35,175 nt of DNA, from contig NZ_MUHX01000030.1 of NCBI RefSeq assembly GCF_002007215.1, positions 1-35,175 of the forward strand. Direction: 5' to 3'. Origin of the DNA: Pyramidobacter sp. C12-8 (GTDB lineage Bacteria; Synergistota; Synergistia; Synergistales; Dethiosulfovibrionaceae). The notes below the pieces were generated by a model that did not search any database, was not told where the DNA came from, and saw only the letters and a program-made list of their open reading frames with translations. A program made the position numbers and the translations under genes. Positions 12,774-18,786 of this stretch are shown piece after piece (the first letter of the stretch is position 1; each line of letters begins with the position of its first letter).

Positions 12774-13100
12774 ATGGCAGTCGAACTTACGAAAGAGACG
12801 TATGAAGCGGCGATCGAAGCCAGCAAAAACAAACCCATGTTTATGGATTTCTGGGGCCCCAAGTGCACTCATTGCCTTGCCCTGATGCCCAGCGTCGAAG
12901 CTCTCGCCGAGAAGTATGCCGACAAGGTCGATCTGTGCAAGGTCAACATCGCCGGCGGCCGCCGCGTCGCCATGGCCCTCAAGGTCATGAGCCTTCCTTC
13001 CTTCCTGTTCTTCAAGAACGGCGCCGAAGTGGCCCGTCTCAGCGGTGACACGGTCACCATCGAGCAGATCGAAGAGAACGTCAAGAAGCTCTGCGAATAA
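12774..13100 (+). CDS. trxA: Thioredoxin-like protein of the glycine-reductase type
   Basis: A 108-residue protein with the thioredoxin fold. The active site is FWGPKCTHC, with redox cysteines 31 and 34, instead of the common WCGPC. Following features are ALMPSVEALAEKY, NIAGGRRVAMALKV and cis-proline SLPSF. This pattern resembles the divergent thioredoxins that donate electrons to glycine reductase in amino-acid-fermenting anaerobes, which fits its position beside the riboswitch-grdXEB operon. AAGGAG (12758-12763) precedes ATG 12774. It has its own promoter and terminator. The probable reductase partner is encoded at 22897. Confidence 0.88.
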   Translation: MAVELTKETYEAAIEASKNKPMFMDFWGPKCTHCLALMPSVEALAEKYADKVDLCKVNIAGGRRVAMALKVMSLPSFLFFKNGAEVARLSGDTVTIEQIEENVKKLCE

Positions 13101-13112
13101 CCTCGCCCAACG

Positions 13113-13145
13113 AAAAAGCCCGCGCGTTTCGCGCGGGCTTTTTGC
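13113..13145 (+). terminator. Intrinsic terminator after the thioredoxin gene
   Basis: AAAAAGCCCGCGCG (from 13113) pairs with its complement ending in a T-run (to 13143) around TTTC. Confidence 0.93.
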
Positions 13146-13419
13146 ATCGGACGCCGCGTGAGTTCCGGAGCGGAAATCGGCGCGGGGAGGAGGGCGCGGC
13201 GGGATGTTTTTTGTCGTGAATGGGTTTGTATTTTTAAATGAAAAATAAAGGCCGTAAATCTTTATGTTGTGACAGAATGTCGTAAGAATATTTCTTTCTT
13301 CGAGGCGTTTGTTTAAAATGCACAAAATAAATTTGCCTTTTTGCGGTTTTGGTGTATTCCTCGTACTTTTGGATCGACTGTTCTTTCATAAAAAACATTA
13401 CTGAGCGATCGTAAAAAAC
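13146..13419. other. AT-rich intergenic stretch before the grd promoter
   Basis: Between the thioredoxin terminator and the riboswitch promoter there are 274 bp, much richer in A and T than the surrounding genes. No gene, RNA or clear repeat is seen. It may hold activator sites for the grd promoter. Confidence 0.5.
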
Positions 13420-13447
13420 TTGATATTTTTCTCGTTGGTTGTAAAAT
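13420..13447 (+). promoter_or_regulatory. Promoter of the riboswitch-grdXEB operon
   Basis: TTGATA (13420-13425), 16-bp spacer, TAAAAT (13442-13447). Transcription would begin near 13454, about 10 nt before the glycine aptamer. Confidence 0.75.
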
Positions 13448-13463
13448 GAACCTGGCGAGAGAA

Positions 13464-13580
13464 ATTCGGGAGAGAGATTCCGACCTGTTTTGTGAGCGTC
13501 GGACGCCGAAGGGGCAACGCAAAACGTTTTTTCATTGCGGAAACTCTCAGGCACAAAGGATCCCGAGCGGACGCCGCTCT
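13464..13580 (+). ncRNA. Glycine riboswitch (single aptamer)
   Basis: The conserved core is clear: GGGAGAGA (13468-13475), GCCGAAGGGGCAA (13505-13517) and GAAACTCTCAGG (13540-13551) followed by CACAAAGGAT. P1 pairs 13465-13471 with 13561-13567. Only one aptamer is recognisable. Glycine riboswitches normally raise expression of glycine catabolism genes when glycine is bound, and the next genes here encode glycine reductase. The 3' strand of P1 shares bases with a hairpin GAGCGG-ACG-CCGCTC (13565-13579), a possible switching element. No terminator is visible before grdX, which suggests translational control. Confidence 0.92.
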
Positions 13581-13636
13581 GAATATACGTGCGAATCGTA
13601 CGACAGAGACTCATGACCACCAGAGAGGTGAGCGTG

Positions 13637-14026
13637 ATGTCCTGTCGCTTTATTTTGCTTACGAACAACCCGCGCTACAAGGACCGCGCCGATTTGCCCG
13701 TGCAGTTCGTCGACGGCGCCGGGAGAGACGTCATCGCAGCCGGGCGCGACCTGATCCACAAGGGATGGGTTCTGCAGAACCATCCGCTGTACGGCAACTT
13801 TCGTCCGCATCAGCAGCCCTTTCGCACGTTGTTGCTCAAAAAAGACGAAAAATCGGGCTTCGACGAATACGGCCTCAACCTGATCGAAGAGGCAGGGCTC
13901 GTCTACGCGAACGATCCCCACCCGCTGACTCCGGCGCAGACGCCGCCCCGGATGTCGGCCGACTGTTCCGAGATCGACTTCGAGCTGATGAAGGAGACGC
14001 TTCTCAAGAACGATCTGATCCGCTAG
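13637..14026 (+). CDS. grdX: GrdX family protein
   Basis: A 129-residue protein starting MSCRFILLTNNPRYKD. GrdX proteins are small proteins of unknown function found at the head of glycine, sarcosine or betaine reductase operons. The N-terminal ILLTNNP, the central GRDLIHKGWVLQNHPLYGN and HQQPFRTLLL fit that family. ATG 13637 is preceded by GAGAGGTG (13623-13630). Longer in-frame readings from GTG 13589 run back into the riboswitch leader and are unlikely. It is the first gene after the glycine riboswitch and is followed by grdE after a 157-bp spacer with two hairpins. Confidence 0.88.
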   Translation: MSCRFILLTNNPRYKDRADLPVQFVDGAGRDVIAAGRDLIHKGWVLQNHPLYGNFRPHQQPFRTLLLKKDEKSGFDEYGLNLIEEAGLVYANDPHPLTPAQTPPRMSADCSEIDFELMKETLLKNDLIR

Positions 14027-14116
14027 CGTTTTATCCGGGCACGGAGCGGTTCCCTCCGCTGGGCAGAGCGTGGAATCTCTTCTGGCCATGATCTAACGAT
14101 ACAGGTACCGCGCGCC

Positions 14117-14154
14117 GCCGGATTTTTCCGGCATCAGTGCCCCGACGAGGGGCA
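14117..14154 (+). promoter_or_regulatory. Tandem hairpins in the grdX-grdE spacer
   Basis: GCCGGA-TTTT-TCCGGC (14117-14132) and TGCCCC-GACGA-GGGGCA (14138-14154) are perfect, adjacent stem-loops ending 16 nt before the grdE ribosome-binding site. No T-run follows, so they look like processing or stabilising elements rather than terminators. Confidence 0.5.
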
Positions 14155-14183
14155 TGGGTAACATTCAGAAGGGAGGAGTTATC

Positions 14184-15476
14184 TTGAAGCTTGAACTCCA
14201 TAAGGTAAAGATTGACAAGATCGCGTTTGGGGACGAATTCTCCGTCAAAGGCGGAGTGCTCACCATCAACAAGAAGGCCATCATCGACCATCTGATGGAT
14301 GACGATCGTCTCGCCAGTGTCGATGTGGAACTGGCCCATCCGGGCGAAAAGACCCGCATCATGCCCGTGAAGGACGTTGTCGAGCCCCGCTGCAAGATCG
14401 AGGGCACCAATGAGGTGTTCCCCGGCATGATCGGCGACGTCGACACCGTCGGGGAAGGTTCCACTCTGGTCCTCGACGGCGCCGCCGTGGTCACCACCGG
14501 CCGTCTCGTCGCCCCGCAGGAAGGCATCGTCGACATGTCCGGCCCCGGCGCCGAGCTGACGCCGTTCTCCAAGACCAAGAACATCGTTCTGGTCCTGAAT
14601 CCCGTCGAGGGGCTCGAGAACCACAACCGCGAGACGAGCTGCCGCATGGCCGGCCTGAAGGCCGCCGTCTTCATCGCCCAGCAGATCAAGAAGGCCGGAT
14701 TCAAGGCCGACAAGGTCGAGACGTTCGAGGCTCCCTGCTACAAGGACGCCCTGGCCGCCTATCCCGGACTGCCCAAGGTCGCCTACATCTACATGCTGCA
14801 GACCCAGGGACTGCTTCACGACACCTACGTCTACGGCGTCGACGCCAAGAAGATCATCCCCTCGGTGATCAACGCCACCGAAGTCATGGACGGCGCCATC
14901 TGCTCCGGCAACTGCGTGTCCGCCTGCGACAAGAACAGCACTTACGTGCATCTGAACAACCCCATCATCAAGAGCCTTTACGAGCACCACGGCAAGGATC
15001 TGAACTTCATCGGCGTCGTCATCACCAACGAGAACGTGACGCTGGCCGACAAGAAGCGCAGCAGCTCCTACGCCGTCAAGCTGGCCCAGACTCTTGGCGC
15101 CGACGCGGCCGTCATTTCCGAGGAAGGCTTCGGCAACCCCGACGCCGACCTGGTCATGAACTGCTGGAAGTGCGAGCGCAAGGGCATCAAGACGGTCCTC
15201 GTCACCGACGAGTACGCCAACCGCGACGGCGCCTCCCAGTCTCTGGCCGACACCTGCCCCGAAGGCGACGCCTGCGTCACCGCCGGCAACGCCAACGCTA
15301 CGATCACCCTGCCTCCGATGGACAAGGTCATCGGCGACATCCAGTTTGCCGACGTCATGGCCGGCGGTTTCTTCGGCTCGCTGAAGAAGGACGGCAGCAT
15401 CTTCGCCGAGATCCAGATCATCACCGGCGCCACCAGCGAAGTTGGCTTCACCAAGCTGGGCGCTTACACGATCTAG
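14184..15476 (+). CDS. grdE: Glycine/sarcosine/betaine reductase component B, pyruvoyl-forming subunit
   Basis: A 430-residue proprotein. In this family the chain is cut between Asn and Cys and the Cys becomes a pyruvoyl group that forms a Schiff base with the amino-acid substrate. The cleavage motif is visible as SGNCVSACDKN with Asn243-Cys244. Other conserved parts are PVEGLENHNRETSCRMAGLK and the C-terminal EIQIITGATSEVGFTKLGAY. The start is TTG 14184, preceded by GGGAGGAG (14171-14178). An ATG at 14154 lies upstream of that site and adds a non-homologous extension. The substrate (glycine versus sarcosine or betaine) is not proven by sequence, but the upstream glycine riboswitch favours glycine. 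Confidence 0.93.
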   Translation: MKLELHKVKIDKIAFGDEFSVKGGVLTINKKAIIDHLMDDDRLASVDVELAHPGEKTRIMPVKDVVEPRCKIEGTNEVFPGMIGDVDTVGEGSTLVLDGAAVVTTGRLVAPQEGIVDMSGPGAELTPFSKTKNIVLVLNPVEGLENHNRETSCRMAGLKAAVFIAQQIKKAGFKADKVETFEAPCYKDALAAYPGLPKVAYIYMLQTQGLLHDTYVYGVDAKKIIPSVINATEVMDGAICSGNCVSACDKNSTYVHLNNPIIKSLYEHHGKDLNFIGVVITNENVTLADKKRSSSYAVKLAQTLGADAAVISEEGFGNPDADLVMNCWKCERKGIKTVLVTDEYANRDGASQSLADTCPEGDACVTAGNANATITLPPMDKVIGDIQFADVMAGGFFGSLKKDGSIFAEIQIITGATSEVGFTKLGAYTI

Positions 15477-15536: not shown

Positions 15537-16847
15537 ATGACTTATAAAGTGGTTCACTATATCAACCAGTTCTTCGCCGGCATCGGCGGAGAAGAGAAGG
15601 CCGACATCGCGCCCGAAGTGCGCGAAGGCATCGTCGGTCCCGGTCTGGCCCTGAAGAACGCTTTCAAGGGCGAGGCCGATATCGTTGCCACCATCATCTG
15701 CGGCGACTCCTACTTCGCCGAGAACATGGACGCCGCTTCCGACTTCGTGGTCGAGGCCGTGAAGAAATACGGCGCCGACGGCTTCGTCGCCGGTCCCGCT
15801 TTCAACGCCGGCCGCTACGGCACCGCCTGCGGCGCCGTCTGCAAGGCCGTGGGCGAGAAGCTCGAGATTCCCACCGTTTCCGCCATGTACGTCGAGAACC
15901 CCGGCGTCGACCTGTACAAGAAGTACACCTACATCGTCAGCGCCGCCGACAGCGCCCGCGGACTGGGCAAGGCCGTGCCCGCCATGGCCAGCATCATCCT
16001 GCGCCAGATGAAGGGCGAAAAGCTCGGCACCCCGGCCGCCGAAGGCTACATCGAGCGCGGCGTGCGCGTCAACAAATTCTACGACGAAGTCGGCGCCGAA
16101 CGCGCCGTGAAGATGCTGATCAGCAAGCTCAAGGGCGAGAAGTTCGAGACCGAGTACAAGATGCCCGTGTTCGACCGCGTCGAGCCCCGGCCGGCTCTCA
16201 AGGACGTCAGCAAGGCCACGATCGCCCTCGTCACTTCCGGCGGCATCGTGCCCTTCGGCAATCCCGACCACATCGCCGCTTCCAGCGCCCAGAACTACGG
16301 CGAGTACAACATCGCCGGCGTCGAGGACCTGAAGCAGGGCGAGTATCAGACCGCTCACGGCGGTTACGATCAGACCTACGCCAACGAGGATCCCGACCGC
16401 GTGCTGCCCGTCGACGTGATGCGCAAGCTGGAGAAGGAACACAAGATCGGCAAGCTCTACGATTATTTCTACGCCACCGTCGGCAACGGCACCGGCGTCG
16501 CCAACGCCAAGCGCTTCGGCACGGAAATCGGCAAGAAGCTGCACGGCAAGGTCGACGCGGTCATCCTCACCTCCACCTGAGGCACCTGTACTCGTTGCGG
16601 TGCAACGATGGTCAAGGCTATTGAAGAGAATGCCGACGTCCCCGTGGTCCATATGCTGACGATCGTGCCGATCTCCCTGAGCGTCGGCGCCAACCGTCTG
16701 ATCCCCACGGTCGCCATTCCTCACCCCCTCGGCAACCCCGCGCTGAAGCCCGAGGAGGAGTTCGCGCTTCGTTACCGTCTGGTCACCCGCGCCCTCAAGG
16801 CCCTGCAGACCCCGGTGACCGAGCAGACCGTTTTCACGGAGGACTAA
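15537..16847 (+). CDS. grdB: Glycine reductase component B, selenoprotein subunit (UGA = Sec348)
   Basis: A 436-residue selenoprotein. An in-frame TGA at 16578-16580 interrupts the frame after AVILTST, and the sequence continues without a break as GTCTRCGATMVKAIEEN to the TAA at 16845. STU-GTCTRCGATMVK is the known selenocysteine site of GrdB, so the TGA is decoded, not a stop. Sec348 attacks the substrate imine made on GrdE, giving a carboxymethyl-selenoether passed to protein A. AAGGAGGGG (15523-15530) precedes ATG 15537. The C-terminal VVHMLTIVPISLSVGANRLI and AIPHPLGNPAL are typical. Automated callers will split it into a 347-residue protein and an orphan fragment starting near 16608. Confidence 0.96.
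16578..16610 (+). promoter_or_regulatory. Bacterial SECIS element of grdB
   Basis: Directly after the UGA a stem CGTTGC/GCAACG (16593-16598 with 16602-16607) encloses the loop GGT. The loop begins 18 nt after the UGA. This is the same distance, as I recall it, as in the E. coli fdhF SECIS, whose loop is GGUC. It should recruit SelB with Sec-tRNA. Confidence 0.8.
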
Positions 16848-16882
16848 GCGCCTCTCGACGGTTAGAGAGATATTCGAAACCT

Positions 16883-18141: not shown

Positions 18142-18786
18142 ATGAAATGGAGCGGGATCTTCACGGGGAAGAGGACACCGGACGAAAAAGCCCCCATGGA
18201 TTTTTCCGCGGAGACCGCGGTGGTCGGCGAGAAAACGGCGGTTCCCGCCGACGGCGAAGTCGGCTGCCGGGCTGCCGAGACCGAAGCGGAAGGCCGCGGC
18301 GGCGCGGCGGAGAATAAAACGGTCCCTGCCGCGCCGGAGCTCCCTCTTTGCGACGTGACGGTGCGCATGCGCATCAACGATACGGGCGACGTCGCCAAAG
18401 CGGCGCTTTATCTGGCGCTTTCGGACGGGATCGGCGAAGAGCGCCGCATCAAGGAAGCGCTGAGCGCCTGCGGGTGGCGCGGCGTGGCCACCGAAGTGGG
18501 CGGCATTTCCGGCGAGCTTGCCGCGAAGGCCAGCCGTGCTCTGGTCGGCGCGGCGCTGAACAGCGGAGTCGTGCGCAAGGACGGCGCGGAGATGCACGCG
18601 CTCATGCACGCGGCGCAGGAAGCCTTCAAATCTTTCATTCCCTGCGGCCTGCTCGAAACGAGCGTCGGCGCCAAGATCGCCATCGTGCGCAATGCTCAAT
18701 GGCTGGCCGTGGCCGTCGCCGGCGATGCGGCCTTTCATGCCATCGCCCACCACGAGCGCGTCAGCGTCGGCGTCATGCACATTTGA
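18142..18786 (+). CDS. HutP-family RNA-binding regulator with N-terminal extension
   Basis: The 214-residue product has two parts. Residues 1-70 are low-complexity, rich in Ala, Glu and Gly, and not recognised. From about residue 70 (DVTVRMRINDTGDVAKAALYLAL) to the end it resembles HutP, the histidine- and Mg2+-dependent antiterminator of B. subtilis hut, which is about 150 residues long. Shared features are ATEVGGISG, the EMHALMHAAQEAF segment that corresponds to the metal- and ligand-binding ESHALYHATMEAL, KIAIVRNAQWLAVAVAG, and the C-terminal GVMHI against GINHI. AGGGGGTGG precedes ATG 18142. No hut genes are nearby, so its RNA target is unknown. It follows the AI-2E gene by 91 bp. Confidence 0.8.
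   Translation: MKWSGIFTGKRTPDEKAPMDFSAETAVVGEKTAVPADGEVGCRAAETEAEGRGGAAENKTVPAAPELPLCDVTVRMRINDTGDVAKAALYLALSDGIGEERRIKEALSACGWRGVATEVGGISGELAAKASRALVGAALNSGVVRKDGAEMHALMHAAQEAFKSFIPCGLLETSVGAKIAIVRNAQWLAVAVAGDAAFHAIAHHERVSVGVMHI

Follow-up and report, generated by a model that had tools for sequence, protein, structure and literature searches.

The stretch of DNA analysed here, called the window throughout, covers 35,175 nt of Pyramidobacter sp. C12-8 (family Dethiosulfovibrionaceae) and carries a glycine reductase operon in the order grdX-grdE-grdB, preceded by a leader RNA that matches the glycine riboswitch family RF00504 (Table 1). The GrdB protein scores above the cut-off of TIGR01917, which is the glycine-specific model, and the trxA gene upstream of the riboswitch (12774-13100) has its own terminator. 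The grdA gene, with an in-frame UGA, lies away from the operon on contig C144 (126449-126889), and the genome also contains a gcvT gene (contig C166, 100488-101249) without a glycine riboswitch. Just beyond the grd genes, positions 18142-18786 of the window encode a HutP-domain protein (PF09021, 2.6e-29) whose N-terminus is extended by about 83 residues. A comparison addressing a plasmid origin of the leader gave no match.

Table 1. Features of the grdX leader and the grd operon, in window coordinates.
Feature	Position	Strand	Basis or remark
Promoter-like site TTGATA-16-TAAAAT	13420-13447	+	Matches 10/12 consensus positions; weak, as 0.6 such sites are expected by chance
P0 5' strand GGCG, then the AGA bulge and GA of the kink-turn	13454-13457	+	Pairs with 13572-13575
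Glycine aptamer, P1 + P2 + P3	13459-13573	+	RF00504, 53.4 bits
Aptamer P1	13465-13471 / 13561-13567	+	Part of RF00504 match
P1-competing hairpin of the earlier note, GAGCGG-ACG-CCGCTC, 6 bp	13565-13579	+	Overlaps P1 3' end, P0 3' strand and ghost P1 5' strand
Linker GA and P0 3' strand CGCC (kink-turn), downstream of P1	13570-13575	+	Compensatory CAGCG/CGCTG in G120
Ghost aptamer; ghost P1 CUCUG 13577-13581 / CAGAG 13604-13608	13577-13608	+	CTCTG offset, RF03166 alignment
Ghost inner hairpin	13588-13593 / 13597-13602	+	Within ghost aptamer
Predicted anti-start hairpin, 18 bp: 13601-13606/13642-13647, 13608-13610/13639-13641, 13611-13615/13633-13637, 13618-13621/13627-13630	13601-13647	+	Fold, local z, covariation and swap tests in relatives
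Shine-Dalgarno-like GAGGTG of grdX	13625-13630	+	Sequence; 13627-13630 paired in anti-start hairpin
grdX, ATG at 13637, pairing site in codons 2-4	13637-14026	+	NF038093, 85.8 bits, E 2e-24; profile starts at residue 6
GrdE-type subunit, TTG start, ORF extended from 14154	14184-15476	+	PF09338, E 1e-198
grdB, in-frame UGA (Sec) at 16578-16580	15537-16850	+	TIGR01917, 643.8 bits, cut-off 602.2
SECIS_4 element of grdB, directly after the in-frame UGA	16581-16618	+	RF01990, 60 bits

By its sequence, the leader RNA upstream of the grd operon is a genuine glycine riboswitch aptamer. The RF00504 score stands against a gathering score of 32 (E 1.4e-10 on 241 nt), and a covariance-model scan found this to be the single match across the whole 2.67-Mb genome. 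The core motifs GCCGAAGG and CUCUCAGGC are present, GGCACAAAGGAU occurs with one additional base, and the aptamer presumably binds glycine. An earlier note on this DNA, made from the letters alone, had remarked on the extra core base, and it is real: the window has GGCACAAAGGAT where the two more distant congeners G119 and G120 have GGCACAAGGAT. That note had also read the RNA as a glycine riboswitch directing glycine reductase, which the aptamer score and the grdX, GrdE and GrdB profile matches bear out. The weak promoter match would place the RNA start at about 13454, the first base of P0.

We searched 188 genomes of the phylum and found the aptamer in 119; loci preceding grdX, the window included, number 102 in 102 genomes (42 genera, 9 families). 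A GrdE-based scan identified the group as Synergistota (e.g., L166 from Acetomicrobium and L196 from Fretibacterium) and added loci from Clostridia and Desulfovibrio-type bacteria. In Synergistota it is normal for grd to be preceded by a glycine riboswitch, and the other two groups have this arrangement too. Contrary to what the earlier note implied, a reductase is not an unusual target: within the phylum these riboswitches chiefly serve grd, and the operon of C. difficile had already been listed (PMC11477304). Further targets sampled in the phylum are gcvT, a lipoate ligase, a Na:alanine symporter and a DUF5058 protein, and at L149 (genome G018) and L054 (G019) the riboswitch lies directly 5' of a lipoate-protein ligase gene. 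A second aptamer is detectable with Rfam at just 3 grd loci (G014, G017 and G018), and degenerate second halves are kept in families f3, f4 and f5. Six leaders (L082, L088, L089, L099, L087 and L057) display a graded decay of the second aptamer before grdX within one phylum, from Rfam-detectable through degenerate to a short ghost.

The type-1 singlet with its ghost aptamer reportedly goes back to Ruff et al. in 2016. Such a singlet is classified as an aptamer plus a 3' ghost aptamer (PMC6944388), and the window riboswitch is, judged by sequence features, of this type: one aptamer, a P0 kink-turn and a 3' ghost. The earlier note described a single aptamer and proposed scanning for a degenerate second one. 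A permissive Rfam scan of 13100-14200 found no second aptamer, and only one is detectable there and genome-wide, yet a 3' ghost is present, and with the P0 kink-turn it means that the element is not a bare singlet. The leader-linker kink-turn of type-1 singlets appears in the window as GGCG-AGAGA ... GA-CGCC, and 90 of 100 grd leaders share the P0 kink-turn pattern while using many different pairs (GGCG/CGCC in the window, CAGCG/CGCTG in G120). At 82 of the 102 grd loci, CTCTG begins after a 3-base gap past the Rfam match (+4 to +8), and 75 of the 102 have a clear ghost P1, with CTCTG closed by ACAGAG or ACAGGG 29-88 nt downstream; in the window's family the ghost measures 31-34 nt.

The only additional result of the permissive 1.1-kb scan was a full-length alignment to the two-part model RF03166 (glycine-GGAnGA), which extends over P0, the aptamer and the 3' stem. 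Its 58.7 bits fall under the gathering score of 110, and we rejected a classification under this family. The second half of RF03166 has a GGAGA and an AAAAGGA core, whereas the window ghost has neither; lacking a core, the ghost was also rejected as a binding aptamer.

The 3' strand of the ghost P1 has a second potential partner at the start of grdX. Together with its flank it supplies CGACAG (13601-13606), which is complementary to CUGUCG (13642-13647) in codons 2-4, and in the predicted fold this helix is the outermost part of a hairpin that encloses the ribosome-binding site and the AUG of grdX. Bases 13604-13606 and 13608 are needed by both the ghost P1 and the anti-start hairpin, which are therefore mutually exclusive; A13607 is the only base of the ghost P1 3' strand that they do not share. 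Prediction and covariation in relatives thereby place the ribosome site and start codon in a structure exclusive with the ligand-bound fold, the masking that characterizes a translational ON riboswitch. When 13454-13660 was folded with P1 and P0 formed, the anti-start state reached -69.5 and the ghost state -63.1 kcal/mol, figures that leave the ligand and tertiary contacts outside; the modelled gap of about 6 kcal/mol is large for one ligand, in a model that includes neither tertiary docking nor co-transcriptional folding. The outer helix of the window has 6 bp, with an A13600/C13648 mismatch where G117, G119 and G120 have A-U, and the local hairpin z in the window is -3.7. A further pairing, CGCUC (13575-13579) with GAGCG (13630-13634), is possible in the window and broken in G117 (GAACG), and we dropped it. 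In a test that swaps start regions between genera, the window alone ranked unremarkably (p 0.20), so the case for the window is carried by its relatives and by the 18-bp hairpin.

Across 36 genera, the native ghost strand pairs with its own start region 3.5 kcal/mol more strongly on average than with the starts of other genera (Wilcoxon p 3.3e-6), and in 18 of 34 genera the start region outdoes at least 90% of later grdX control stretches (p 4e-5, with start codons taken 14-62 nt after the ghost), p values that are optimistic in both cases since the genera share ancestry and are not independent. The position signal is strong in f1, in genus g7 of f4, in g10, g11, g14, g17 and g27 of f6, in f7 and in most of f8, and the helix is absent in g19, g20 and g22-24 of f6 and others, about half of the tested genera, so it is not universal. 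Leaders of g19 (e.g., L133 and L140) have the ghost P1, and neither a start-masking nor a terminator hairpin was found in them. Of 35 genera, 29 have a local hairpin z below -1, with values from -3.1 to -5.1 in the window's genus and from -2.0 to -7.7 in its sister genus.

The helix also covaries. Among 24 sequences of f1, f6 and f7, the pair beside the invariant core is GC in 12, AU in 9 and UA in 1, and the covariation score is 0.151 against 0.090 in shuffled alignments (0/500). This pair sits on the third (wobble) base of an Arg codon. The 12 sequences of f8 have 5 of 11 pairs altered on both sides, with 18 such cells against 8.0 shuffled and a covariation score of 0.431 against 0.241 (0/500); one register is kept there among different sequences and peptides, and slid registers give far fewer pairs.

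Taking this evidence together, we put the probability at roughly 0.7 that the window carries a type-1 singlet glycine riboswitch that turns grdX translation ON, and probably also that of the grd genes behind it, through an exchange between the ghost P1 and the anti-start hairpin. We hypothesize that, when glycine is absent, 13601-13615, made up of the ghost P1 3' strand with flanking bases, would fold onto the grdX start, and that the 18-bp hairpin would make the Shine-Dalgarno sequence inaccessible together with the AUG and codons 2-4. With glycine bound, the aptamer and the P0 kink-turn would stabilize the ghost P1 (CUCUG/CAGAG), which would capture the shared strand and free the grdX start. 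An ON polarity would fit the glycine-dependent increase of grd in C. difficile (PMC11477304) and the gonococcal precedent (PMC13104608). The earlier note had considered control probably translational, and we agree that this is likely.

Control might instead be transcriptional, with the hairpin itself, or blocked translation together with Rho, ending transcription. Clostridial grd leaders do have terminators at the corresponding position, and U runs follow the hairpin in families f3 and f10. We nevertheless regard this as unlikely for the window, whose hairpin is without a U run: no intrinsic terminator was found between the aptamer and grdX, the hallmark of a transcription-terminating switch, and no grd leader of the window's family (f1) holds a terminator-like site. 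Rho-dependent coupling may nonetheless contribute. The earlier note was thus correct that none precedes grdX; it had also held that a conserved terminator at this position in relatives would speak against its reading, and such terminators are present in Clostridia and absent from the window's own family.

The earlier note had placed the main two-state switch at the aptamer P1, in competition with the hairpin at 13565-13579. This hairpin exists, is perfect, appears in the unconstrained minimum-energy fold and shares 3 nt with the P1 3' strand, and it overlaps the 3' strand of P0 and the 5' strand of the ghost P1 as well. As a conserved switch it does not hold up, since it is identical only in the near-identical leaders of the window, G116, G117 and G118 from one genus. 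G119 and G120 carry a disrupted version and the sister genus has none, while P0 and the ghost P1 persist, and by itself the hairpin does not extend to the ribosome-binding site. A stem of at least 6 bp occurs somewhere in the corresponding 24 nt in 11 of 100 grd leaders, which makes a 6-bp hairpin on its own weak evidence. We consider this model improbable; the hairpin is a local feature that may help in the glycine-free state, and the comparison of leader sequences puts the conserved competition one helix further downstream than the aptamer P1, at the ghost P1.

It is just as improbable, in our judgment, that the local Shine-Dalgarno hairpin CACC/GGTG alone governs access and that the longer pairing is a by-product. 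The pairing, which the earlier note had proposed, is possible, and versions of it with altered bases recur in the family (CGCC/GGUG in G117, CUCC/GGGG in G109); a strong local hairpin at the ribosome site is present in family f10. In the window, however, these 4 bp form merely the tip of the 18-bp hairpin, and the ghost P1 3' strand is part of the 5' arm of that hairpin; without overlap with the ghost P1, the 4 bp would leave glycine no route of action, and the outer helix covaries independently of them. Least probable is that the complementarity reflects protein-coding conservation or chance in a riboswitch with another or no expression platform: although CR/GR residues recur at the grdX N-terminus in several clades of the genera compared and the helix is missing from about half of those tested, the f1/f6/f7 pair changes at a synonymous Arg wobble base, which protein constraint does not explain, f8 preserves the helix register with a differing peptide, and native pairing is stronger than swapped pairing between genera.

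The ghost P1/anti-start exchange that we propose differs from the best studied singlet, that of Torgerson in 2018, which reportedly switches a terminator, whereas in the window the strand would mask the start codon. Like other type-1 singlets, the window has one predicted binding aptamer, a P0/kink-turn and a short 3' ghost with a conserved P1, but these singlets mostly serve glycine cleavage (93% precede glycine-cleavage genes; PMC6944388), and the window's group serves grd. The gcvT riboswitch of N. gonorrhoeae is a translational tandem glycine ON riboswitch whose logic was demonstrated by mutation (PMC13104608); there, as predicted for the window, a segment of the second aptamer base-pairs to the translation start when no glycine is present. 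The gonococcal RNA is a tandem without a P0/kink-turn in which the aptamer-2 pocket pairs with bases upstream of the AUG, whereas in the window the ghost P1 strand would pair with coding bases and the AUG lies inside the hairpin. In C. difficile, as in the window, a glycine riboswitch lies ahead of grdX, and grd transcription increases with glycine (PMC11477304, PMC10880999).

Sampled Clostridia (L202, L203, L222, L230 and others) have a terminator platform, unlike the window. In Geosporobacter, Caloramator, Lutispora, Anaerosolibacter, Hathewaya and Sporomusaceae, a hairpin and U run form a terminator whose 5' arm is, or directly follows, the aptamer-2/ghost P1 strand; leaders with a terminator built on or abutting the 3' strand are L202, L203, L204, L206, L222, L230, L240 and L215. 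Among Desulfovibrio-type grd loci, a start-masking hairpin was seen in L163, L164, L165 and L170 (z -1.8 to -3.0) and is missing in L168, L173 and L174; its occurrence in the first four, as in Synergistota, may stem from horizontal transfer or convergence. With a terminator in Clostridia and a start-masking hairpin elsewhere, both platforms use the same strand. In the grdX leaders L076 (f3) and L144 (f10), a ribosome-site hairpin is followed by a U run and could both mask translation and end transcription.

Three elements were already known singly: the glycine riboswitch ahead of grd, the type-1 singlet and the translational glycine ON switch. A start-codon platform at grdX or in Synergistota was not described in the non-subscription literature searched. 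We consider it reasonably probable, with less assurance than for the window itself, that the ghost is itself the switching element in Synergistota and in some Desulfovibrio-type bacteria, its P1 3' strand pairing alternately within the ghost and with the beginning of the grdX coding sequence, with the first grdX codons kept complementary by synonymous and N-terminal changes, and that Clostridia build a terminator from the same strand before the same operon. Ghost aptamers have long been regarded as mere scaffold, and they would gain a testable role besides scaffolding. The leaders would also offer a natural comparison in which one riboswitch and one operon use the same strand to act on translation in some phyla and on transcription in another, within a set of leaders that retain the second aptamer whole, in degenerate form or only as a ghost.
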